A stretch of DNA of 64,000 bases from positions 1-64,000 of the forward strand of contig BLSF01000052.1 of NCBI GenBank assembly GCA_012862575.1. The letters run 5' to 3'. Positions 35,705-63,183 of this stretch are shown here, piece by piece. The DNA comes from Parietichytrium sp. I65-24A (Eukaryota; Sar; Bigyra; Thraustochytrida; Thraustochytriidae). The notes under the pieces are model-generated. The model was not told the origin of the DNA. It did no database searches and worked only from the letters and a program-made list of their open reading frames with translations. Each line of letters opens with the position of its first letter. Position 1 is the first letter of the stretch. Made by a program: the position numbers and the translations under genes.

Positions 35705-36665
35705 AAATTGTTGACCCACTTATAGATGATAATTTCGTTGTTGCAATCCGATTTTCAAAGTGAGACTACCCCCACCCAAAAGGGATCCTTGTGCTTCAGC
35801 TTTCCAAAGCAGCTAGCAAGCCGAATTTTCAAACCAAACAACTGAATTCTGAATTCTCAATCAACTGAAAGAAACCATCCCACACGTGGTTGCCCCGACA
35901 TCAAATCCCGGGCAACTTGAGAAGCACGAACCAAATCACGACAGAAAAAAATGACATTGTACACGCGACTCAAACTTTCACGCAAGCCCGCGAAACGAAA
36001 CCACATCACAACACATTCCTATTCCACTGCCAACATTGTCAACATTCCATGTTCTGAATTCTGAAATCCCCACGACCAACTCAAGCTCACGCCAATAGGC
36101 GCCCCACACTTTCCCGAGATTCCATTCCCACCCACCTATACTATTACAAACTATAGTGAACAGAGAGCCCTTCGCGAACAAAAGAACATCACGGGGGTCA
36201 TACGGCGCCTTTGCTCACACATACCGGCGCATACATGCTCGCGTGACTCGCGTGGAAGAGAAGAGTGCGCGTGCGTGGAAGATAGATAGATAGATAGATA
36301 CTCATTGATACATTGTTTGACATTGACAACATTGACAGTGACAGTGAATGAATACATTGACAGTGAATCATTGTCTACGTGGAAAATACATTGGTCGACG
36401 AGGACAAAGGACAAGACAAGAAGGTGCATAGACAGAAGACAGAGGGAGGCTTCCACTGCCAACCTTGCACAGTGCGTGTATGTTGTTTCGTTTCGTTTCG
36501 TGTCGGTTGTTATAAGTCTGTCTGCGTTTGCGTTTGTGTTTGTGTTTGCAGTTAATACAAAACACAACTTGGACGCGACTTGGGCCGGAGCTTTGGAAGA
36601 CAGAGAAAGAGAGAGCTGCACGAAGGGCGGTTTGGCGAAGGCGAGTGAGGTGTAGGAGAGCGGAA
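35705..36665. other. Intergenic region upstream of the GDAP2-like gene
   Basis: It contains GATA repeats (36282-36300) and ATTGACA repeats (36303-36370). A tract of GTTTGCGTTTGTGTTTGTGTTTGCAG ending at about 36550 looks like a 3' splice site, so a 5'-UTR intron is possible. No gene is seen. Confidence 0.45.
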
Positions 36666-38111
36666 ATGAGCGTGATGGCATGGAGCAAATGCGGCGAGGT
36701 AGACTGCGTTCGAGTCGAGGCTGCGGAGACGGCCGTGGACGGAGAGGCGAAGTTTAAGGTCGATGAGCGCGTGAATGATGTCATCATGCTGGTGAAAGGG
36801 TCGCACAAAATGTACGCGGATCTTCGTGTGCAAGCGCTCGTGAACCCCACGAATGGCACGTTGGATGACTGGTCTGGGCTGAGCGGTGCGCTGCTGCTGA
36901 AAGCTGGGCCGACCTTGAAAGAAGAGTGCGGATTCGTGCCCACGAGATGCCAGACCGGGGAGTCGAAGATTACACGGGGTTGCAATCTCCAAGCGCCGTT
37001 TGTGATTCACACGGTGGATCCAAAGTACACGGAGGAGTTTCAGACGGCTGCAGAGACCGCTCTGCACGGTTGCTACAGGTCTTGTATGTCGCTGGCCATG
37101 GAACAGCAGCTTCGCTCGATTGCTTTTCCGTGCGTGTACTCGGAGCGGAAAAAGTACCCCCGCGAAGAAGCTGCGCACGTGGCCATCCGCACCGTTCGGC
37201 GGTTTCTGGAGCGGTTTCCCGACAAATTCGATCACGTACTCTTTTTTCTCGATAACGACAGCGATTTGGAAATCTACAAACGGCTTTTATGCATCTACGC
37301 GCCACGCAACGATCGCGAGCTGGCCTGGTCGATGCTGAACGCACCAGCGGATTGCGGCAACGAGTGGGGCGAGAGGGTGATTGCTGATCGTGAGATTCGC
37401 ATCCAGGCGAACCCGTTCAAACCAGTCGCTCATTCTGCAAAGGCAGGCACGGGTACATCGCCTGGCTCCCTGGAGAACGGCAGTGCAGCTTTGCTTGCTA
37501 CAAATGCTGCGGGCGGGGCGTTTCGAGAGTACGAAGATGTTGTGTATGGAACAGACGCCCTTGTGGACAATGCTAATTACGCCAAGTACCTTGAGAGGGC
37601 CAAATTTGATGACCTGAAAGATATCCTGGCGCTCAACATTGTCTACCACTCTGGAGAAGACGAGATGGGCCGACCAATCATATGCTGGGTAGTTTCCAAC
37701 ATGAACGTGCCAAAGCTAGACCTTGAGCGCCTCTTCCTATACACAATATTTCTTTGTGACGGCCTTGTGACCCCTTCCAGAGGTTACGTGCTGGTCATCC
37801 TTGACAGTAATCTGACCATCGGAAGTATGCCAAACATCACGTGGATCAAGTCTTTGTACGAGGATGTGATTGGTCGCAAGTACAAGAAGCACATCAAGGG
37901 GATGTACGTCGTTCATCCCACAATGGCCACAAAGATGCTTTTCTGGGCGGCCATGCCCTTTGTGTCATCCAAATTTTGGTACAAGCACAAGTACATCGAG
38001 TCTTTAGAAGAGCTCAGCCGATACCTGCCCTGCGACAACTTGATTCTCCCAAAACGTGTATACCAAGCCGACGCTCGCGCGGAAGCTGCGCGAAATGCTT
38101 CATGGTTTTGA
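36666..38111 (+). CDS. GDAP2-like protein: macro domain plus CRAL-TRIO (Sec14) domain
   Basis: This is a single exon of 481 residues. The N-terminal macro domain (about 40-190) has VQALVNPTNGTLDDWSGLSG, SKITRGCNLQAPFVIHTVDP and SIAFPCVYSERKKYP, matching the ADP-ribose-binding loops. The C-terminal half (about 315-460) is a Sec14/CRAL-TRIO lipid-binding fold: DEMGRPIICWVVSNMN, RGYVLVILDS, KGMYVVHPTMATKMLFWAAM, FVSSKFWYKHKYIESLEELS. The combination defines GDAP2-type proteins, found in animals and plants. Its molecular role is poorly defined. I chose ATG 36666 because the upstream extension is Arg-rich, lacks an ATG and follows a possible splice acceptor. Confidence 0.9.
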   Translation: MSVMAWSKCGEVDCVRVEAAETAVDGEAKFKVDERVNDVIMLVKGSHKMYADLRVQALVNPTNGTLDDWSGLSGALLLKAGPTLKEECGFVPTRCQTGESKITRGCNLQAPFVIHTVDPKYTEEFQTAAETALHGCYRSCMSLAMEQQLRSIAFPCVYSERKKYPREEAAHVAIRTVRRFLERFPDKFDHVLFFLDNDSDLEIYKRLLCIYAPRNDRELAWSMLNAPADCGNEWGERVIADREIRIQANPFKPVAHSAKAGTGTSPGSLENGSAALLATNAAGGAFREYEDVVYGTDALVDNANYAKYLERAKFDDLKDILALNIVYHSGEDEMGRPIICWVVSNMNVPKLDLERLFLYTIFLCDGLVTPSRGYVLVILDSNLTIGSMPNITWIKSLYEDVIGRKYKKHIKGMYVVHPTMATKMLFWAAMPFVSSKFWYKHKYIESLEELSRYLPCDNLILPKRVYQADARAEAARNASWF

Positions 38112-50715: not shown

Positions 50716-52659
50716 TTAAAAGGAAACGCGCTTGCGCAGTTTGTTGTGGCCCAGGAGAGCCACAGAGCATATGCTGAGTACGCAAATCCCGGCATTGGAA
50801 CTGAGACCGGATTTCACGGTGTCAACCCAGCCATCGAAACTGTTCGGCCTGTCGTCCGAGCGACAGTCTCCTTCAGAGTTGTTTGGTGATTCATCGGATT
50901 TTGGCTGTTCGATGCAATCTGCCTTTGCTTTTCCGGAGCTGTATGGGCATTCTGCAAAAGCGCTCAGGTTGAGGATGGCAGGCGGCATGGTTTCATTGAC
51001 AGCACTCGACTCACAATCCATATCAAACGTGTCTTCTGGGCATTCAGTCCCAGCGTCGCTCATGGAATCAAAAGCGCTGTTTGGTGTTGGGATCGGGGTC
51101 GCGATGGAAGAAGTGTCATCCATGTCGAACGGACCACGACGCCTGGAGCAAACGGAGCTTGATGAGCTCGAGTGCAGATTGAGGCGCTCCTCAATATCTT
51201 TAATAAACCTTGGCTTTGCGTGCGAGTCTTGTGTGGCGTATTCGAGCTTCTTTTCGATTTCGGTGATCATGCGGCCCTTGACCGACTCCAGCTCTGCATC
51301 CATGATCTGGCCGAGCTCGGCGCGAACTACGTCAAGCACAGGGAAGACGGGGCGCTCATATGTTTTCTTCAGCGCACGAACAGGCATCTTCATCGAGCCC
51401 TTTGCGTCCGAGCCAATCACATTGTTTGCGAGGGCAAAGTGGCGGTAGAAGAAGCCCCCGAGCAGACCGGACTCGAGGTACTCTAGCGCCTTGGCGTAAG
51501 TGTACATGTCCAAGTTCTCCTCTGGGTGTTTGTAGACGTCGAGCACCAAGTTTGCCATCTCGCGCTCAGAGAGTTCGGATTCTGGAGTCTCTGAGAGCTT
51601 AGTGATGAAAGGCGAGAACAGAGTCTGAGTAACTTTGCGGAGTAGCTTCACTGAAGACGAGCCAGCAGCAGAGGCACCGTCGAGCTCGACCTTGAGCTTG
51701 AGGTAGTCGCAGTTGATCATGGAGGTGAGCATCATGAGGTGCTCACCGAGATAGTCCAGAATTCGGGCTGCATTACGCATGCGGTCAGATGCACCCTTCC
51801 AGTTCTCAAAGAGATCGGCCATCTCGGTAGCGCCCATGAGTCGCTGCAATACAACAAAGCTCCAGCATTCGGTCACAAGGTGTGCGTTCCTAAAGAAGAA
51901 GTCCTCGTCGTGGTTGAAGGTGGCAGAGGTCAGCACACGGCAAGCTGCCTCGGGCTTGACCATGGTGGCGTACGGAAGGCACGGCTTTCCCGAAAACCCA
52001 GTGTACGGGGAGAGTCCCACCACACTGCGCAGCTCAGACATCTGCGCTTCGACTCCAAGATTGACGACCCACTCGCCGAAATTGTCTCGAAAGACGCCAG
52101 TGATGTTGCGCACCAGTTTCTTCACACAGCACCTCTCCTCTTCTGTCAGATCTGCGAGACAGGTTCTGAGTGTGGAGATGAGTTCGGAGATTGCTACAGA
52201 CTGGCTGAGATCAGATGTGTCACTGCAAATCAAGTCGTCTGCCGATGTGCGCATGGCACACGCGGCGCTCTCCATGTCGCCCATATCACTCTCATACATG
52301 TCTGAAAAGATGCGCAGCTGCGTTTCGATGTCTTTCGCCACGAGCTCCATGCGAGAGCTCTTCAATGCGTACTTCCTCCTGTCCTTCACAAAGTTGGCGA
52401 ACAGCAGGAACGAGAACTCGATACTCTGCATGCCAGCTCTGAAGCACGCACCGAGCGGCATGTGCATTTCGTCGGCCTCCTCCCATGTCTTCATCACGGG
52501 AACGAGCTGAATGTACTCTTCGTACACAACTCGCACTCGCTCTTCGCGCTTGGCGCGGGTGGACAGACCACCTGTCAGCCTTGCCATGGGGCATCCTTGC
52601 ATGGCAAGTTGTCTCAGCTCCGGCGTGGGTGACCTGGACTTGTCCATATTTGCAGGCAT
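50716..52659 (-). CDS. Unknown helical protein with C-terminal membrane anchor
   Basis: This is a single exon of 647 residues, ATG 52659 (a second Met lies four codons on). I do not recognise the family. Residues 1-480 are mostly amphipathic helix (for example MPLGACFRAGMQSIEFSFLL, LVTECWSFVVLQRLMGATEM, LVLDVYKHPEENLDMYTYAK). Residues 480-610 are Ser-, Asp- and Pro-rich and probably disordered. The last 25 residues contain one hydrophobic stretch (AGICVLSICSVALLG) followed by HNKLRKRVSF, the layout of a tail-anchored membrane protein with the bulk in the cytosol. The clean 1.9-kb frame and sensible composition make it a convincing gene despite the lack of a name. Confidence 0.8.
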   Translation of the reverse strand: MPANMDKSRSPTPELRQLAMQGCPMARLTGGLSTRAKREERVRVVYEEYIQLVPVMKTWEEADEMHMPLGACFRAGMQSIEFSFLLFANFVKDRRKYALKSSRMELVAKDIETQLRIFSDMYESDMGDMESAACAMRTSADDLICSDTSDLSQSVAISELISTLRTCLADLTEEERCCVKKLVRNITGVFRDNFGEWVVNLGVEAQMSELRSVVGLSPYTGFSGKPCLPYATMVKPEAACRVLTSATFNHDEDFFFRNAHLVTECWSFVVLQRLMGATEMADLFENWKGASDRMRNAARILDYLGEHLMMLTSMINCDYLKLKVELDGASAAGSSSVKLLRKVTQTLFSPFITKLSETPESELSEREMANLVLDVYKHPEENLDMYTYAKALEYLESGLLGGFFYRHFALANNVIGSDAKGSMKMPVRALKKTYERPVFPVLDVVRAELGQIMDAELESVKGRMITEIEKKLEYATQDSHAKPRFIKDIEERLNLHSSSSSSVCSRRRGPFDMDDTSSIATPIPTPNSAFDSMSDAGTECPEDTFDMDCESSAVNETMPPAILNLSAFAECPYSSGKAKADCIEQPKSDESPNNSEGDCRSDDRPNSFDGWVDTVKSGLSSNAGICVLSICSVALLGHNKLRKRVSF

Positions 52660-55600
52660 GATGCCAATATATTCAAATAAGCGCGAAGACTGGCCTCACT
52701 GTCAACACGGGACTGCTTTGAGAACAGGTTTTGCCGGACACTGCTTTTCTGCTTTCGGCAGCTTCTGGCCAAGCCCGCTGCAGGCTCCGGGGTCGGTTGG
52801 TGTACACCTGAATACGCGGCCAAGCAATTACGACTCTCTACCTGCGTTCGTGTTTGCGGGTTTGCGACCAACACGAGGCGAAGAAAAAGTGTACACGGCC
52901 ACGGTCCCCACGCTTTCTTTCTTTCTTTCTTTCACTCTCTATATATATATATCTCACGAATTCACGGCTCTCTCTTTTCCGTCACTCTCCAGGTGCGCGA
53001 ATTCCCGCTTTCCAAATTCTCTCCACCGTGTTAATCACGGATTGCCGGGCACGCTCCCACGTCTCCTGCAGACACCTTCCAACGCTCCAGATGTGCAAAA
53101 TATACGTATACAAGCACATATATGTATATACACTATATGCTTCCATGCATATATATATATCTCCTAATCCTGGTCCAATGAAATTATATATATATTAATG
53201 TTATACGTATTTATAATATATGCGTTAGTGCATTGGGTTACTAGTATACACAATATGCGTTCCATAGGAAGCCTTGTCCATGCACGTAGGGATATTGCTA
53301 TGTCCAGAGGGTTTTGGTTTGTGAGTGTGGAGAGGGATGCTATGATTATTTCTATGGTATAGTACTCCTTCTTCTTTCTGGCGCGTCTTTCGATTCGTTT
53401 GGTCTTGCCTTCTCCCTCTTCCACGTTGCAAGTCGCAAGTTCTAGTAGATCCCTCTTAACCATTTCACCTAGGTTATGCTAAGATTCATGGTAAGCCGCA
53501 GCTAGTGTGCATAAATTCGTTTTCTTGATTCTGCTACCGTATCTGGTAGAGAAGTGGATAAGCCAACCCCACTTGAAGCGAATGGGCGGTAAGGGGTACT
53601 ACGCTGCGCGGATAGGATCGGCGCGAACTTTCTCTCCGTGTTTCTCCCTCTCTTTTCTCTCCTTCTCCCCTCCTCTCTTTTTCTCTCATTTTGTAAACAA
53701 ATTCAACAATGTTTGGACCTCTCTTGGGAAGTCTCGGCGCGAGATAAGTGAGGAAAGCAGTGAGAGGAGAGTGGTTGAGAGGGGTTGATGGTTGATGGCA
53801 GTGGGAGGAGAGAACGGAGAGAAAGGAGGCTCTTCCTTCTCCTCGTGTCAAATTCCAAGATCAACCCACCGCAGGTAGTCCAGGGAGTCCCAACACTGCG
53901 CATCCCTACCCTCTCGCCACTGAATACTTTCTCACTCGAGTGCTCTGGTGGACCGTGTCGATCGTGTCGATCGTGTCGGAGCAAGGAAGAAGGAGGAGAG
54001 AGGGAAAGGGGAAGGAGTTTGTCCGAGAGGGAAAACTTGAACGCGTTTACAAAATTTGAACTAGCACAGTCTTTGAGACTTGATTTGTATCCCCACAGCT
54101 AGTACAAACAGCACAAAGTCTGGACTACGAGGTTGACTTTTTGGATAAGCTCTGTCTTTTTCTTCTTGGGTTCATTCCAGAGCAAAATGGACGTTCTGGG
54201 AGGGTCTTGGCAAAATGACGTAATTGTTTCCCCTAGCAAGCTTTCGCTAAAAATCAGACCTCGAAAACTCGAACTGGAGAAACTCGAGTAGGACTGTCAA
54301 TAAGACCCCAGAATAGAAATAATTAATCAACGTTAAGACCTATTTACAGGTATTCATTCCGACATTTCCGCCCTGATTTCTCAGATGCCAAAAGACCGTC
54401 TTTTAATCATGTTATATATGCGAAGAACAGGGAGCTTGTTCAGTTTTAAATACTGCAATTGAGACATTCCATATGAATTCAGGAATTCTTAGCAGAGCAA
54501 CAATGAGGACCCGACTCGGTAAGATCACCACCAACTCCCAAGGAGCAACGGGCCGCGCGGACTAAGGTACCCCCCTTTAACCGTTTGGACGACAAATTGC
54601 GTCAGTGGTTCTCTAATCGCATATGTTTAATGCTCTACCACGGATTAATCATGTTGGCACGAGATTCTCGGAATGTGAGCCTAGATGCCCCCTTTTCCCC
54701 TCTTCCAGGTAAACGTTCTGTCGAAACTCGTGATTGATTAATTAACCTCTCGAATAAAGGGGGTAGTGAGCACGTTATTGAACTCTTTAAAAAGACCGAG
54801 CCATGAAAAGAATAAAAGACTGTTCTATCTATAAGAGCGACTAATCATTTCCTTAATATCAACTATTTGGAAAAGGGGGTCCAACGGATGGGAAGGTATG
54901 GTTAGAAAGATAAAGTTATTAGAAGCTGGGCTGGCCCATCACCTCTCCCTCTTCGTGTACACAGAACGGTAAGGATTGGTACTACAGTGAGTGAGAGTAC
55001 TTGAATATTGAACGCTGGATGGATGGACCGTGCAGAGGAAAATCCAAGTCGAGTAGCAAAACTCGATAAACAATACTAGTGAAAGATGGATCAAAATTTT
55101 GTTTCTCCGTGTTTCTCCGTCTCCCACAGGTCCACCATAAGACTATACATAGTAGAACCACTGAGCCCAATTTTTACATTCCAACCTTCGAAGATAACCA
55201 GCACTAGTCAACTGGTTAGATCCTTGTCCTAGCAATGTAGGACTCGCAGTATGTCCAATTGCTGAATTCTGTTCTGAAAAGTTCGGGAAAAAAGAAACGA
55301 ATCTCGGAGAGTGCCAGCCTAGATCAAGTTTTTCAATTCACGCGAAGTTCGGCGCAAGGTTGTGAGGTGACTTCCAGGCTTGCACGAAAAATACTTTTTC
55401 AAAACTCAGGCGCTCTCTGTTAGTGATCGGAAAGAGAGCAATCGAATAAATTAAGTTAATCGCTGCTTCACACTCTTTCGCTTTTTCTTCTTTCTTCCCA
55501 CCCTCCCGCTCCATTTGAGAGGGCGCATACGTAGATCAGCCAAGGTGTCTAGTGCTATTGTATACAATGGGAGAAAGATGCTAGCACCAATCTCCGAATT

Positions 55601-56449: not shown

Positions 56450-59400
56450 AAAAAGAAGAAGAAGAAGCTCTTTTAAAATTAGCTTTCGGAACAGAACCAC
56501 AAGATGTGAGTATTGACTCGCGAACTTGAAGAGTTAACTAAATTTCGATTAACATGGACATATTTTTTGAAAGTCATCAAATGCAAAGGCTCTTTTTAGT
56601 CAAAGACACGCGAAGCCCGCAGAGACTGTGAAAGCAAGAAGGCTTTCTTTATTAATTTATCCCTCGAAGCCACACGCGCGGGAGCCTTGACTCGAGCGCA
56701 TGAGTATATTCTCCCCCGGCCGAACCGAAGAAAGAGAACAACTTGCACTCAAGGACTGCTCACCGCCACACGTCCATCTCCTCAAATGTATTACAACTTA
56801 CTAGCAGTTGAACTTTGAAGCGATGTAAATTCACAAAAGCAAAGCAATGCAATGCACGTGCGCTTGCAATGCAAATGCAACACACCATACCAAGCTGTGG
56901 GGGTACACACTTGTTGGCGCTGCGGGTTATGGCTAGCTTGAATTTACATGGCGACACTAAGACCCATGAAAGTCGGGGATTCCTGGTCGCCCATCCACCA
57001 CTTCCTTCTCTCTTGACTCCAAGCCACCGCTTTTGCCTCTCTGCTGTAGTTTCCCCGACTCACAGCAATCCTTCTTCTTTCCCATTCTCCCTTCCCTCTG
57101 TAGGAGCCGTACAACCCTATCCGTTAGGTTATTTATAAGCTCTTACAGAAGAGAGGGAGGGAGGGGAAAGGGGGAGGAGAAGAAAGAGGAAAAAGGAAGG
57201 AGCTCTCATCGGAGGATAATTTTCCGGCCAATAATTGATTCCGTAGAGCAGTGGGGGCGGCCACTGAAAACGCTAGTGCAAAGGAAGCATTATTCCTTGT
57301 TCACTGCAAAGCAAGTCAAAAAAGAAAGAAAGAAAGAAAGAAAGAAAACGAACGGATATACCAATTCACACTCACAGTCAAAACCTGTCGCGCGTGAGCA
57401 AAGTGTATGGAGTTCATGATCAATAATGGCAGCATTGAGCGTTTGTGAACCCTTTTCGCTAGCGCTAAATATCAGAAACGATAAGAATTGGTCAACGGAT
57501 CCTTTCCAAATTGAACGACTGCAACACATTGCAATACCGACAGAGTGACTGTGAGTATAAAGTTTCTTCAACTTTCTGGGTTGAGAAGAAGGCGCGTAGC
57601 TTGACTAGGCCAGATGAAAAGAAAAGAATTGTTACCGTTGATGACTTTTGAACCGCCAAAAAAGTGCGAATGCGTGAAACTCGACTGGAGAATGAAGGTG
57701 AAAATTGAATCATTCGTGCTGAAATGACAGCAAGATCTGGCGGCACGCGCATCTCTGATGAGCCGAGCGTAATCAGAGATGCAGACGTTTCTTCGAGGAT
57801 GGGCAACGCGTTTGCTTTTCGAGATTTCTCGAGGTTTAGTATCCCCAAGTCCCGCAACAGGTCAAGCAAAGATCAACCTGCTCTGGAAGTCCATGGCCAA
57901 TCTCGCCAATCTCGCCAACGCCCAACGGTTGATTCCCCGCCTCGATTAAATTTAGAAATGGTTGAGCCATACTATTTCCACTGGCTAGGTAAAGTGATTC
58001 TCGGCTCTTGGAACACACTGCTCCCGGGTCCTGGCTTGCACGAAAACCATCTTGAGTAAGTCAATGTTGAAGGAGTTGCTTGGGGGAAGGTGATCAAGGA
58101 CCACGAAAAGAAAATCGAGATTAGCGGCGCGAGGAAGATTCTGACACACAAATATACGGTTTCAGAATTCGGAAAACTCGCGAACGCGTTGCAGGTTTTT
58201 ATGCGGAATCCCGCAAACACACAGCATGTTCCTTCAATTTTATTGCACTGCATGCGGGCTTTGAATTGGACGCCTTCGAGTGGTTAGCTCGTTTGGATCG
58301 CGCTGAATTCTCGACTCTGATCTCCGGAACACGCGCGGTTCCGAAACGCGGAGGAACGCTTCCCGGAATCCTGGGGTGGAATGTGGTGAATGTCCCACAG
58401 CTTTGACTCCCCCGCTGGTTGTCACCCTCATCATTCTTGACTTTGACGATTCAGAAATTAACATGAACCCGGTGTTTTGCATGCCTTGAAACTTCTTCGA
58501 ACACTTGAGCGGAATCACAAGACTCGTCGCACTCGGAAAACAGACCGCGAGCAGCACTGCAACGCGAGCGCTTTAGCCGTACAAGGTCTGCAAATCGACG
58601 GTAGTATGCTACGTTGCAGTGCGCCGTCGCGCTCGTAACCACTCAGCGAGCGTATGGACTTGGGGCACTGAGCGGAACCAGACTAACGATACAGAGCAAT
58701 CCAATCTCTGAGTATTGCTGCAGTACAGTCGACCTAACAACTGCGCTCTAGACACACGCGCAGTATTCTGAGCTTGATCCTTTCGTTTTAAAAAATTCAA
58801 AGCGCTGCCAAAACCATCAGGATCGGGCTCTGACCATAACACGCACTGCCCAGAGTATGGTGACGACATGACACAATGCAGGAACGAATAGCCTGACGCG
58901 ACTCCGAATCAATCCATTATTTTACCCATTCCTAGAACTCGCGCCGCGCACGTCGCGTCTCTCTGCCCACTCGCAGTCAGTTGTACTGGTACGCACTCCC
59001 GTGCCGACACTGAGTAATTCAAATCGTGCATCGCACGTGAATCTCGAGTGCCCGCCCCCAGCTCAGGGCATCTTTACATTAGGGTACCATAATTTCCTCA
59101 CACTAGGCGTACATCGCTCGTGAATCTCGTATGCATGTGCTCAAAGCGTCCCTCTGGCGACGCCGGATCTCTCTCACGACTCCTAACGAGGACTTGAACG
59201 GTCATGGTCACGGTTTCGCTTCCTGCACCGGATTACTTCTGGTCATGGTTTCGCTTCCTGCACCGGATTACTTCTGGTCATGGTTTCGCTTCCTGCACCG
59301 GGTTACTTACTATAACCAAAATTACAACTACAGTGTAGTACATTACCTTCATGGTGACAACACTGTGACAACAGTGGATGGGACGCTCTGCTACAGCCAC

Positions 59401-59837
59401 TCTCTAGCTCTGAGCTACTGAAGCAGGGATAGCAGGGATCGAAACTCCACTTGGTAAGCGAAACTCCACTTAGAATCGGCCGTCGACTATTAGCACCCGA
59501 CTCTTCACGACCGTGACCATAGCTACCATAGCTACTGACCCTGGTTGCAAAAGATGGCAAAAGGCGTTGACGCCACATGTGTATATATATACTTTTAATA
59601 TAATAATGAACGTATGCATGTATACGAATGCAAGGACGCGCAGTGTATCGAGGGACAAGAGACAAGAGACGAGAGACGAGAGACTCGCGCGCCGGAGAGA
59701 CTCTTGCTAGGTTTTGTACATCTATCTATCTCCTGACTGCGATTCGCAGTTCGATTCGCAGCTCCAGGGAGGTAGCTGGTCGCCGGAGAGCGCAGCCTGC
59801 CCTCGCCTCCCAAAGCACCTGTTGTGCGGTCCGCGAT
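56450..59837. other. Gene desert, right part (3.4 kb)
   Basis: It contains a GAAA microsatellite (57318-57346), a repeated 'cggattacttctggtcatgg' block near 59222-59300, and a TATA-like TATATATATAC at 59581-59591 ahead of the sulfatase gene. Two short plus-strand frames at 57724-58059 and 58090-58287 could be remnants or exons of a small gene, but I could not join or recognise them. Confidence 0.45.
58561..58680 (-). other. tRNA-like tandem hairpins (uncertain)
   Basis: On the minus strand, CGCTCG-ctgagtggtta-CGAGCG (a D-arm/A-box-like hairpin) is followed directly by CGACGG-22 nt-CCGTCG. The first loop resembles a tRNA-Ser/Leu A box. The second stem has too long a loop for an anticodon arm unless it carries an intron, and no clear B box or acceptor stem follows. 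It may be a decayed tRNA-derived element. Confidence 0.2.
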
Positions 59838-62800
59838 ATGTGGAAGAGTGGCGAAGCGCGGAGCAGGCTTTTGCAACTGGAGAAGCGGCTGGGACATGGC
59901 ATGAAGCACTCGAACCTGCATGTGAAGATGGCGGCGTGGCGGACGCTGTTGGTGCTGACGATTATTATGGGGAGCTTGGGGTGGGCAAAGCTGAATGTAA
60001 AGCACTTGGGCGATGACATGGTCCCGGTGGAGAGACTCACCGAGCCGCGCCCCATGCAGCGGGAGAAGTTTTGGGATAAAATGCAGTCCGATGGGCTGGA
60101 CGGAGTGCTGATGATTCTCGGACAGGATTGGGGCTCTGCGGACCTGCCTTCGGATGGCGAGCTAGAGAACGGTGCCACGATTCACGGCTTTCGGGCGGCC
60201 AGCCCTGATACCACAGAAGCCGTGGCGGGAATCCTCACTGGGCGCTTTCCTGCGGAAGTGGACGTGGATTGGGAGTCTGAGAACTGGGCTCTCCGAGTTG
60301 GAACAGTCTACAGCGAGCTTTCTAAGGTTGGCACAAGCAAGGTGCGAGTCGGGCACTTTGGCAGTTGGCCATTCAAAGGGGTGAGAATTGAGGACCTCGT
60401 TCACGAGAGCTTGGCCACCGCCAATGCAGAAGAAGCTCTCAAAGCGGCGGAGCTATTCGTTGAAGATTGCATCGCCAAAGGCGTAAAATTTTACGTCAAC
60501 ATTCTGCTGCCCATGCAGGACGTGGCCTTCCATCCGACGGAGCGATCGCACAATTGGACATCCGATATTGGTGAGACTGAGCGAGAATCTGAGCCGTGCG
60601 AAACTTGCAAATTCTGCACCGATATAGTGCGTGCCAGCGGCAAGTCAAGGTATAAGAGCTGCCCTGCTCTTGTATACGCTCAAAGCAGAGCTAGGGAAGA
60701 CCGCTTGTACGGTCATTTTATCCAGAGGATAATTTCTAAAGAAAGAAATGTGGTCGCAGCGTTTGCGAGCACGAACGGGCCCGAAGTCCCACAAGTATAT
60801 GGGCATGCTGCTGGCAGGACGCATTATAGAGGCTGGAAGAGGTCTCTCTACGATGGAGGCATTCAGGTGCCTCTCAAGCTCTGGTTCTCAACGCGAGACC
60901 CAAACTATTATTTTCAAGATCAAGTGAACGACTTTCGGAGCAACTCTCTTCGAGAGAGCAGCAAGGCTCTCTTCGTGGCTGTGGACTGGTTTCCCACGGC
61001 TTTTCACCTACTGATGGGATCAAACGAGCGAATGTCCGAGCATGTTCTAAGATTAAACGGGATAGACCATTCTGCTTTTATCCTCGGAGCAGATTTAAGC
61101 GAGCAAAAGCGCCCCTCACCAATCTTCTGGGCAACTCCGCACAACGCCCCTGGCCACTGTCATGGTGAGGCCCCTGGTCTTCTGATGATGGAGGAGAAGC
61201 AGTTCAAGTATTTTGCAGAGCCAAGCGGACACGATGGCAACCGCTCGAGTTTGAAAGACGAAGAGTTTTATCAAGTTTACGAAATTGCCGAGCAAGCCGA
61301 TCGTTTTGAGCACAACTCTGATCTGGTCAAGCATGGAGATCGGGTGAATACATGTCGAAAGAAGCTTTTAGATTGGTACGAATCGCTTCCACGGCGGATT
61401 CACAGTGGATGGAGAAAGAGCTGGGGCTGCCGTTCTGCTCTACAGAAGGCTACGGCAACTTTCAAAGATATCGATGACGGTGGAAGAGAGCACATCTCGC
61501 AGTTGGCATCCCATCGAGTCCAAAAATCGCCGCTTGGCATAATTTTGATGCTCGCCGACGATCTCGGAATTGGCGACGTATCTTTATTCGGCGACCGCGA
61601 TTTAAGCGGCGTGAAGAGTCGCGTGGCTTTCAAGCCGGACACACCATCAATTGACGCGCTCGCTCGCAAAGGAATGATCATGAAGAATTTTTATTCGGCG
61701 TCTAGTATATGCTCACCCACCAGAGCGGTAAGTTCAGGTGTCGCAAAAACCTGGGGTGTTGCACGCGGAAGCTAACTCGTGTATTCGTTTGGTGGCGTAG
61801 TCAATTTTGACCGGAAACTACCCCTTTCACAAAGATGTCGCAATGCACTTCCAGACTCAGCACGCAAGACGAACCAGCTTGCAACTCGGAGTCGCAAATT
61901 ACCTTGGTGACGCGAACGACGCGAAGCGAAATTACTTGACAACTGTATTTCGCGACACCGGCTATCGCGTAGGGCACTTTGGAAAGTGGCATTTGGGGAA
62001 CCTCGTGAATGAGGGCGGGGTACCCGTGTCCGATGCTCGGTATGGCCTCACGGACTACCGTGTATACTCGGCTGTGTTTGACAAATCAGAGCCAAAGTCC
62101 AAGCGCTTTACGCATGATCAGTGCTTTGCATCTCACATCCAGAAAGATATTGTTGACGAAACTCTGAACTTCGTCACGGAGGCACTCGAGCAGAGGTCAA
62201 GCTACTTTGTAAATGTTTGGTTCCAAAACAGCCACGCCCCGCTGAATTTGGCAACAAGCTATGACCAAGCTGCAAAGCTTGGATACCCATCCACGAGCAA
62301 CCCGTTTCCTGGCCAACCGGAGGTGAACTCGAAAGGGAAATTTCCGAACAAGAATGTTGACAAACATGTTTCACATCAGATCTACAGAGCGCTTGTCCGC
62401 GACCACGACAATCAGGTAGGCCGAATCGTCCGATTTATCGAGGAGCGAGGACTTGCCAACGATACCATCCTCATTTACCTCTCTGACAATGGTCCTGAAT
62501 ATCAATCCATGTATCACGCGAGCGTCGGCTCCAGCGAGCCGTTTAGAGGTGGGAAACGCTCGTTGCTCGAGGGCGGCCTACGCATGCCGTTTGCGATGCG
62601 CTGGGATGGCGTCTTGCCGGCCCGAAGCAACCTTCCTGGAATCGGGTCGACGATGGATTTGATGCCAACCCTTCTAGATCTTGCTGGTATCAAAGGAGCT
62701 GTCGGCGAAGATGAGCTGGACGGAACCAGCTGGTTCGCAAAGAACTCTGACTTGGATTCCGAGCGCACGATTTTCTTCGAAAACAGGGGTTGGGCTAATG

Positions 62801-63183
62801 GAGGCGACTGTCGCGATTACACACCTCGCTTTGCCATTCGCCACGGACCATACAAATTGTACTTGGAGCCGCGAAATCCTAAAGGTCTGCAGCCCGGAAA
62901 ATTTCAGAACGCAGCCTTGCATAATGTCGAGTTAGATCCGAGCGAAACGCTAAATCTCCTGAAAACAGAGGGCGCGAACGCTCACCAAGTCTTGGTACAA
63001 CGCCTCACCACCGAGCTCGTGTCTTACTTGCGCTCGGATAAGTATGACACAAGATTCACGCCTCCTGCTGGGGTTAGAGGTAAGAGGCGGCAAGCCTTTT
63101 TCAAGTGCAGGATAGAGGCAAGGAGCGCGAACTTTGTGGTGAGATCACGCTACAAGGCTTCCGATACGGACTTTTTTGATTGA
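59838..63183 (+). CDS. Sulfatase with fused N-terminal pseudo-sulfatase domain, two exons
   Basis: Exons are 59838-61727 and 61801-63183 (intron 73 nt, GTAAGT, branch gCTAACt), giving 1,090 residues. A signal peptide or anchor (AAWRTLLVLTIIMGSLGWA) follows the start; an earlier in-frame ATG at 59628 exists but adds no signal. The C-terminal domain is a complete sulfatase: ADDLGIGD (D574, D575), signature CSPTRASILTG (C625, R629, the formylglycine site), GHFGKWHLG, SDNGPE and GGKRSLLEGG. The intron falls inside the signature. The N-terminal half is homologous but dead: GQDWGSAD for the metal site, TTEAVAGILTG for CSPTRASILTG, GHFGSWPFKG for GHFGKWHLG, STNGPE for SDNGPE, while GWKRSLYDGG is kept. 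The likely role is hydrolysis of sulfate esters, perhaps on cell-wall polysaccharide, in the secretory pathway or outside the cell. The dead domain may bind substrate. Confidence 0.92.

Follow-up and report, generated by a model that had tools for sequence, protein, structure and literature searches.

The 64,000-nucleotide stretch of Parietichytrium sp. I65-24A analysed here, called the window below (contig BLSF01000052.1, positions 1 to 64,000), carries a two-exon gene at 59838-63183 on the + strand with a product of 1090 amino acids. This gene was confirmed to encode a sulfatase-type N-terminal half (N-half) with a broken active site, fused to an intact sulfatase C-terminal half (C-half). 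The initial annotation had described a tandem sulfatase whose first domain is a pseudoenzyme, and on this the single gene model, homology, predicted fold and lost residues all agreed. The same layout of a dead N-half and a live C-half was found in two further paralogues of the same genome, on contigs C24 and C86, which is new here. The gene and its product are laid out as follows (window coordinates; residue numbers of the product):

59838-61727, + strand: exon 1, residues 1-630, with the entire N-half, the linker and the C-half as far as CSPTRA; a GTAAGT donor follows 61727.
61728-61800, + strand: intron of 73 base pairs (bp), phase 0, GT..AG (GTAAGTT...GGCGTAG), whose excision rejoins CSPTRA to SILTG.
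61801-63183, + strand: exon 2, residues 631-1090 and the stop codon, the remainder of the C-half (PF00884, 96.3 bits).
59937-59987, + strand: N-terminal hydrophobic segment, about residues 34-50, which holds the protein's hydropathy maximum over 17 residues (1.65 at residue 36).
60090-61496, + strand: N-terminal degenerate sulfatase domain, residues 85-553 (hhalign to the C-halves 99.8%; AlphaFold2 predicted template-modelling score (pTM) 0.84; VIA-align Z 35 to 7stv/7stt).
61521-63180, + strand: canonical sulfatase domain of the C-half, residues 562-1090, split by the intron (PF00884 match, intact motifs).

The exon 1 frame is free of stops from 59610 to 61775 and spans the N-half, the linker and the beginning of the C-half, and both halves are therefore one gene at the DNA level. 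That two adjacent genes, or an assembly join, had been misread as one is barely credible, as this continuity through the junction refutes it at the DNA level and the same arrangement stands on three contigs, in the case of C86 as a single uninterrupted open reading frame of 1184 amino acids. Of the protein's four highest-ranking hydropathy windows, the first is close to the N-terminus, at residue 36, and the rest fall within the sulfatase domains. Judged by hydropathy, the N-terminal segment would be a signal peptide or signal anchor; the Met at residue 31 is a possible alternative start, and the N-termini of the C24 and C86 proteins are hydrophobic as well. Upstream of the gene, about 530 bases before its start codon, the window contains a 35-bp unit in three tandem copies with 97% matches (59205-59308).

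The state of each active site was read at ten alignment positions that we take to be the catalytic and metal positions of sulfatases (D48, D49, C88, R92, K148, H150, H220, D293, N294 and K319, in the numbering of an Arenibacter sulfatase, row L007). The three C-halves each kept ten of ten, so that the claim of the initial annotation that the C-terminal copy retains its catalytic residues held. The three N-halves each kept three and had changed seven: in the order window/C24/C86, they carry Q/Q/K at D48, D/D/D at D49, T/A/H at C88, V/L/Y at R92, S/L/L at K148, P/P/P at H150, D/D/D at H220, T/T/T at D293, N/N/N at N294 and K/K/K at K319. The losses comprise the Cys nucleophile and its Arg, one of the two Asp of the first metal pair, the Lys and His of GKWH, the His of HAPL and the Asp of SDN. 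The landmarks ILTG, GHFG, NGPE and KRS named earlier were every one present, and the earlier list of losses was right for the Cys, the Arg and the Lys/His, but of the acidic pair, listed as gone, only the first Asp is lost (Q96) while the second is kept (D97), as are N313 and K334. The positions concerned in the window gene are these:

60123-60128, + strand: degenerate first metal-site pair, Q96-D97 instead of D-D.
60210-60224, + strand: degenerate formylglycine motif, residues 125-129, T-T-E-A-V instead of C-x-P-x-R (in the paralogues the nucleophile is replaced by A/H and the Arg by L/Y).
60360-60371, + strand: GSWP, residues 175-178, instead of GKWH.
60519-60521, + strand: D228, replacing the HAPL His; Asp in all three N-halves.
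60771-60776, + strand: T312-N313 instead of D-N; the three N-halves share the Thr and retain the Asn.
60837-60839, + strand: K334 of YRGWKR, the FRGxK lysine, retained.
61158-61160, + strand: C441 of PGHC, a Cys common to all three N-halves and all three C-halves and found in 0 of 36 other sulfatase rows at this column.
61710-61724, + strand: intact formylglycine motif C625-S-P-T-R629 of the C-half.
61984-61992, + strand: intact K692-W-H694 of the C-half.
62233-62235, + strand: intact H775 of HAPL, C-half.
62485-62490, + strand: intact D859-N860 metal site of the C-half.
62554-62556, + strand: intact K882 of FRGGK, C-half.

Set against the family S1 formylglycine sulfatases (PF00884), the window C-half shares all tested catalytic and metal residues (the C/S-x-P-x-R signature, the D,D...D,N metal site and the catalytic Lys/His set) as well as SDNG, FRGxKRSL-EGG and HAPL. 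The N-half has the same fold by prediction but is without the nucleophile, the Arg, the Lys, two His and two metal Asp, so that it has neither the signature (T/A/H at the nucleophile, V/L/Y at the Arg) nor a complete metal site (D48 to Q/Q/K, D293 to T/T/T); the window chain further differs in carrying two domains. In the accessible text of PMC5066984 the sulfatase Cys and Arg are named as catalytic residues, and the G-K Lys is counted among the most conserved ones. Eight core positions (D48, D49, C88, R92, K148, H220, D293, K319) were kept in 18 of the 18 other sulfatases of this genome that were aligned, with H150 and N294 variable among them (N294 is His in 7/18), and in 28 of 30 bacterial rows of a second alignment (exceptions L043 and L058). 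Even the long-branched C30, C64 and C14b sulfatases (end branches 1.68, 1.68 and 1.55; window N-half 1.56) still keep all eight. Each of the three N-halves has thus lost catalytic residues that are conserved in active relatives (7/10), as expected of a pseudoenzyme.

Sulfatase-domain homology of the N-half was found by profile alignment, by a profile of our own and by predicted fold. A hidden Markov model built from 15 motif-intact sulfatases (the three C-halves, 10 other sulfatases of this genome and two bacterial ones) scored the N-halves at 45 (window), 80 (C24) and 102 bits (C86), and hhalign joined a profile of the three N-halves to one of the three C-halves over 400 columns with a probability of 99.8 (E 1.9e-27). 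AlphaFold2, given a 37-row alignment, modelled the window N-half with a predicted local distance difference test score (pLDDT) of 77.1 and a pTM of 0.84. VIA-align superposed this model on a Pedobacter sulfatase (7stv) with Z 35.2 and a root mean square deviation of 2.9 over 371 residues, and on an S1_16 sulfatase (9fo1) with Z 34.6, the nearest folds being 7stv, 7stt and 9fo1. Foldseek gave a best E of 2.3e-19, and the best 50 of 808 matches (E <= 10) were all sulfatases. The best three phmmer matches of C-half exon 2 were 9fo1, 9s8f and 7oza, of which 9fo1 and 7oza are S1_16 chains; S1_16 chains were thus among the best matches both of the C-half by phmmer and of the N-half model by Foldseek.

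Several results weigh against so plain an assignment of the N-half. The search of each half against PF00884 proposed in the initial annotation was clear for C-half exon 2 (96.3 bits), but for the N-half reached 22.6 bits, below the 25-bit cut-off, over profile positions 205-299 only (about a third of the profile), and the NCBIfam profile search of the N-half gave no match. The 37-row alignment behind the good model includes other sulfatases, and the model from the three N-halves alone was too poor to read (pLDDT 43). With this latter model the best Foldseek E was 0.014 and no PDB match reached 0.001; the 50 matches listed were mostly chains of the alkaline phosphatase superfamily with a few unrelated folds, headed by lipoteichoic acid synthase, phosphoethanolamine transferases, YejM and sulfatases. 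Taken with the profile alignment, our own profile (45-102 bits) and the fold comparison (Z 35), the N-half is predicted to keep the sulfatase fold, and the structure prediction called for by the initial annotation, made for the N-half, returned a sulfatase-like model with a degenerate active site (pTM 0.84, Z 35).

Both halves were found at two more loci of the genome, C24:358683-361670 and C86:105490-108381, both on the - strand and both with the window's layout of a dead N-half and a live C-half. The C24 gene has two exons and a 90-bp intron, sited elsewhere than in the window gene (inside the DN-G motif), and encodes 1109 amino acids; the C86 frame is intronless, its 1184 amino acids being counted from the first plausible Met. 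Pairwise identity across the three genes is 25-39% for the N-halves and 38-52% for the C-halves. The C86 protein also ends in a long stretch rich in Ser, Thr and Pro with a hydrophobic C-terminus (L006:408-1020, - strand), resembling a glycosylphosphatidylinositol (GPI)-anchored surface protein, a tail that the window gene is without. Genome-wide, where counts are lower bounds, PF00884 matched at least 29 rows at at least 26 loci: the three tandem genes, 22 others and one non-sulfatase on C32 (L040, 27.4 bits), which we take to be a PIG-N-like GPI-anchor ethanolamine-phosphate transferase and excluded. The other sulfatases are partly clustered, with three matches within 8 kilobases (kb) on C2 and two within 5 kb on each of C45 and C68. 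The genome has three matches to the formylglycine-generating enzyme family (PF03781).

Relatives outside the genome were sought with both halves. In prokaryotic genome contigs, the N-half search gave 72 candidate stretches that reduced to 11 loci with 23-25% identity, all 11 of which keep all ten tested active-site positions, and therefore none of them is a pseudoenzyme like the N-half. Viral contigs gave 22 candidate stretches, none of which was confirmed as an N-half relative, and the phage search gave a single weak match (27% identity, E 0.03). In the phylum sample of Arenibacter (G001), 7 of 296 genomes matched the C86 N-half at E <= 1e-10; in that of a Planctomycetota metagenome-assembled genome (G002), the C86 C-half as query matched 94 of 294 at E <= 1e-20. 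No prokaryotic tandem with a dead N- and a live C-domain was seen among the retrieved loci. L048 (open frame of 1073 amino acids) was tried as a tandem and rejected, as the frame holds one sulfatase domain and the second match lies in another frame. At L066:629-4374 (G132 C1, from the phylum sample of G002), two sulfatase genes lie on the same strand with a 13-base overlap. The downstream gene (L066:629-2809), which holds the best match of that sample's search to the C86 C-half, reads S-S-P-A-R, GQWYLG and DPGAPL against the intact C-x-P-x-R, GKWHLG and PHAPL, and is possibly an independent degenerate or Ser-type copy next to an intact one. The initial annotation had also asked after the fusion in other algae, and nothing supports a photosynthetic alga as host: the 42.5-Mb assembly gave no match to PF00504 (light-harvesting, chlorophyll a/b-binding) or PF00427 (phycobilisome-linker), although a missing match is no proof of absence. 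The FabA family also had no match in the assembly.

In a tree of 35 rows the N-halves formed a clade (100/100), the C-halves another (100/99) and the two were sisters (95/93), and in a tree of 42 rows with more bacteria the values were 100/99, 98/96 and 90/95. The first tree used 18 of the 22 other sulfatase loci of the genome, omitting L019, L037, L038 and L039, which are split by introns or stops and at least two of which carry a C-x-P-x-R motif; the second carried over six of these 18 rows and dropped four near-copies among the 11 prokaryotic loci. The N clade and the C clade share the branching order window,(C24,C86), and the two-domain gene is therefore most likely older than its multiplication to three paralogues; loss of the active site would most simply predate the multiplication too, because all three N-halves lack the same seven residues. 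In addition, C441 and C967 of the window protein mark a Cys common to all six halves, at a column where none of the 36 other rows of one alignment and none of the 29 of the other has Cys; this fits a single origin of the N/C pair. A wider C-x4-P signature for the six halves was rejected, as the C24 C-half has Ala and the Cys alone is common. We therefore favour sisterhood of the N- and C-halves by internal duplication, the origin given in the initial annotation, as the likelier but unproven reading. The alternative, that two already distinct sulfatase genes were fused and the first decayed later, is tolerated by the data, since holding the C-halves with L007, L009 and L043 without the N-halves was 6.7 log units worse and was not rejected by the approximately unbiased test (p 0.17), and planctomycetes offer a precedent, a gene with two sulfatase domains that the authors of PMC4807772 interpret as a fusion of unrelated genes. 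Such a fusion is nonetheless unlikely, given the sisterhood of N and C in both trees and the G-x-C Cys before the C-terminal strands in six of six halves and no other row. Holding the C-halves with all 30 bacterial rows was rejected (p 7e-5) but has no bearing on the sisterhood, because some bacterial rows group with the genome's other sulfatases and the forced clade splits unrelated groups. The window N-half is a long branch, whose placement needs caution. The nearest relatives of the tandem family in the trees are sulfatases of Planctomycetota and Bacteroidota and not the genome's other sulfatases; transfer of the family from bacteria is only a possibility, because the bacterial rows were retrieved with the family's own sequences and the eukaryotic comparison is this genome only.

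The identical layout in two diverged sister genes suggests that the dead half is probably kept for a non-catalytic job. At only 25-39% identity among them, the three N-halves each keep a frame open for about 470 codons, and 73 of 385 columns are invariant among the N-halves, including the shared cysteines. Conservation in at least 80% of the 36 reference rows marks 67 columns; in five of these the three N-halves agree on a different residue (Y to R119, T to V171, H to D228, D to T312 and E to D339), and two of the five are catalytic. A further count found 11 columns, including H to P178, that are invariant within the N-halves and within the C-halves but differ between them. Invariant columns lie closer to the former active-site positions: of the non-catalytic ones, 22 of 67 fall within five residues, against 42 of the 308 variable columns (Fisher p 0.0003). 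That the N-halves agree on a replacement at some former active-site positions hints at a retained non-catalytic role. Against this stand the weak basis that invariance in three rows provides; the clustering of invariant columns near the active site, which is partly a property of any sulfatase; V171, as the window C-half has Val there too; and the retention in all three N-halves of 3 of 9 catalytic against 17 of 58 other conserved columns (Fisher p 1.0), by which catalytic columns were lost no oftener than others and the N-half diverged throughout and not at its active site alone. Divergence spread in this way would also be expected if the N-half were passive baggage or a prop for folding and secretion, persisting as the carrier of the signal segment and linker and not cleanly losable; apart from a core strand, the start of the C-half is without a hydrophobic stretch, and the window N-half has diverged furthest (45 bits, where the others reach 80 and 102). 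We hold this to be rather improbable, as the open codons, the invariant columns with their cysteines and the switched pocket residues speak for more than a prop. A new kind of enzyme, whose remodelled pocket cuts a different bond without formylglycine, would account for the fixed new residues R119, D228, T312 and D339 and for the retained D97, N313 and K334, but T, A and H at the nucleophile position argue against new chemistry and, with Q, Q and K at the first metal Asp, leave neither a conserved nucleophile nor a full sulfatase-type metal site, which makes such an enzyme highly unlikely.

Elsewhere in the window, 36516-38108 encodes a macro domain and a divergent CRAL/TRIO domain in one protein, an order that is presumably the one known from GDAP2, and a 658-amino-acid frame on the - strand (50716-52692) has as its only match the plant Hs1pro-1 N-terminal family, at 19.4 bits and so under the cut-off of 25.

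Kinases and phosphatases offer well-known cases of pseudoenzyme partners. The best functional parallels to the dead and live sulfatase pair are the JAK kinases, with a JH2 pseudokinase and a JH1 kinase, and FAM20A/FAM20C, as presented in the accessible parts of PMC10211241, and the D1-D2 receptor tyrosine phosphatases (accessible parts of PMC7320164) may also be compared; the folds of all of these are unrelated to that of sulfatases and regulation is experimental there, whereas for the window protein we infer it. Like the window gene, the gene of two planctomycetes from Porphyra has two sulfatase domains, but its halves are unrelated sulfatases of different origin by the authors' inference and the passages of PMC4807772 that treat it mention no loss of one active site, whereas the window halves look like sisters with one dead in all three paralogues. 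The statement of the initial annotation that this is not a named architecture stands in so far as searches of open-access literature gave no such name, but a gene with two sulfatase domains is in print there. Nine Lentisphaerae and Planctomycetes sulfatases, which lack the signature Arg (Ile or Leu instead) and are maybe inactive according to the relevant section of PMC5066984, have a broken signature like the N-half, but the loss named in that section is the Arg and fusion to an active copy is not mentioned there. A survey of sulfatases in algae (PMC4659905) found none in the red algal genomes it covered, and neither "two sulfatase" nor "tandem" occurs in its main text. No co-mention of pseudoenzyme, sulfatase and formylglycine, and no inactive or pseudo-sulfatase of the fused cis kind, was found in the open-access literature, a scope that makes both weak as evidence of absence.

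Together, these data point with good probability to a secretory-pathway formylglycine sulfatase with a built-in pseudoenzyme partner. An ancestral sulfatase gene would have gained a second domain copy, most likely by internal duplication; the N-copy would then have lost catalysis, and the whole two-domain gene would have multiplied to three paralogues, all with a dead N-half. The N-terminal hydrophobic segment would send the chain into the endoplasmic reticulum, where Cys625 of the C-half may be converted to formylglycine, consistent with the three PF03781 matches in the genome, and the C-half would cleave sulfate esters. The N-half would keep its fold with a remodelled pocket (D97, N313 and K334 kept; R119, P178, D228, T312 and D339 fixed in all three N-halves) and act in cis without cutting. 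As our tentative first choice, it may hold a sulfated glycan for the live half, the initial annotation having likewise suggested that it perhaps binds sulfated polysaccharide; the next choice, which is more doubtful, is that it packs on the live half as a pseudo-dimer, stabilising or tuning the C-half. Quite possibly, by analogy, these genes form a lineage-specific cis pseudo-sulfatase/sulfatase family, in which the N-copy would have become, after internal duplication, a fixed sulfated-glycan reader or regulator of the live copy to which it is joined; the family would then parallel, among extracellular sulfatases, the JAK pseudokinase-kinase pair, and would have been kept through two gene duplications. 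Three diverged paralogues with a dead sulfatase domain offer a natural experiment on the sulfatase fold without its chemistry, and the dead N-halves may be informative on how sulfatases stay held on sulfated polysaccharides.

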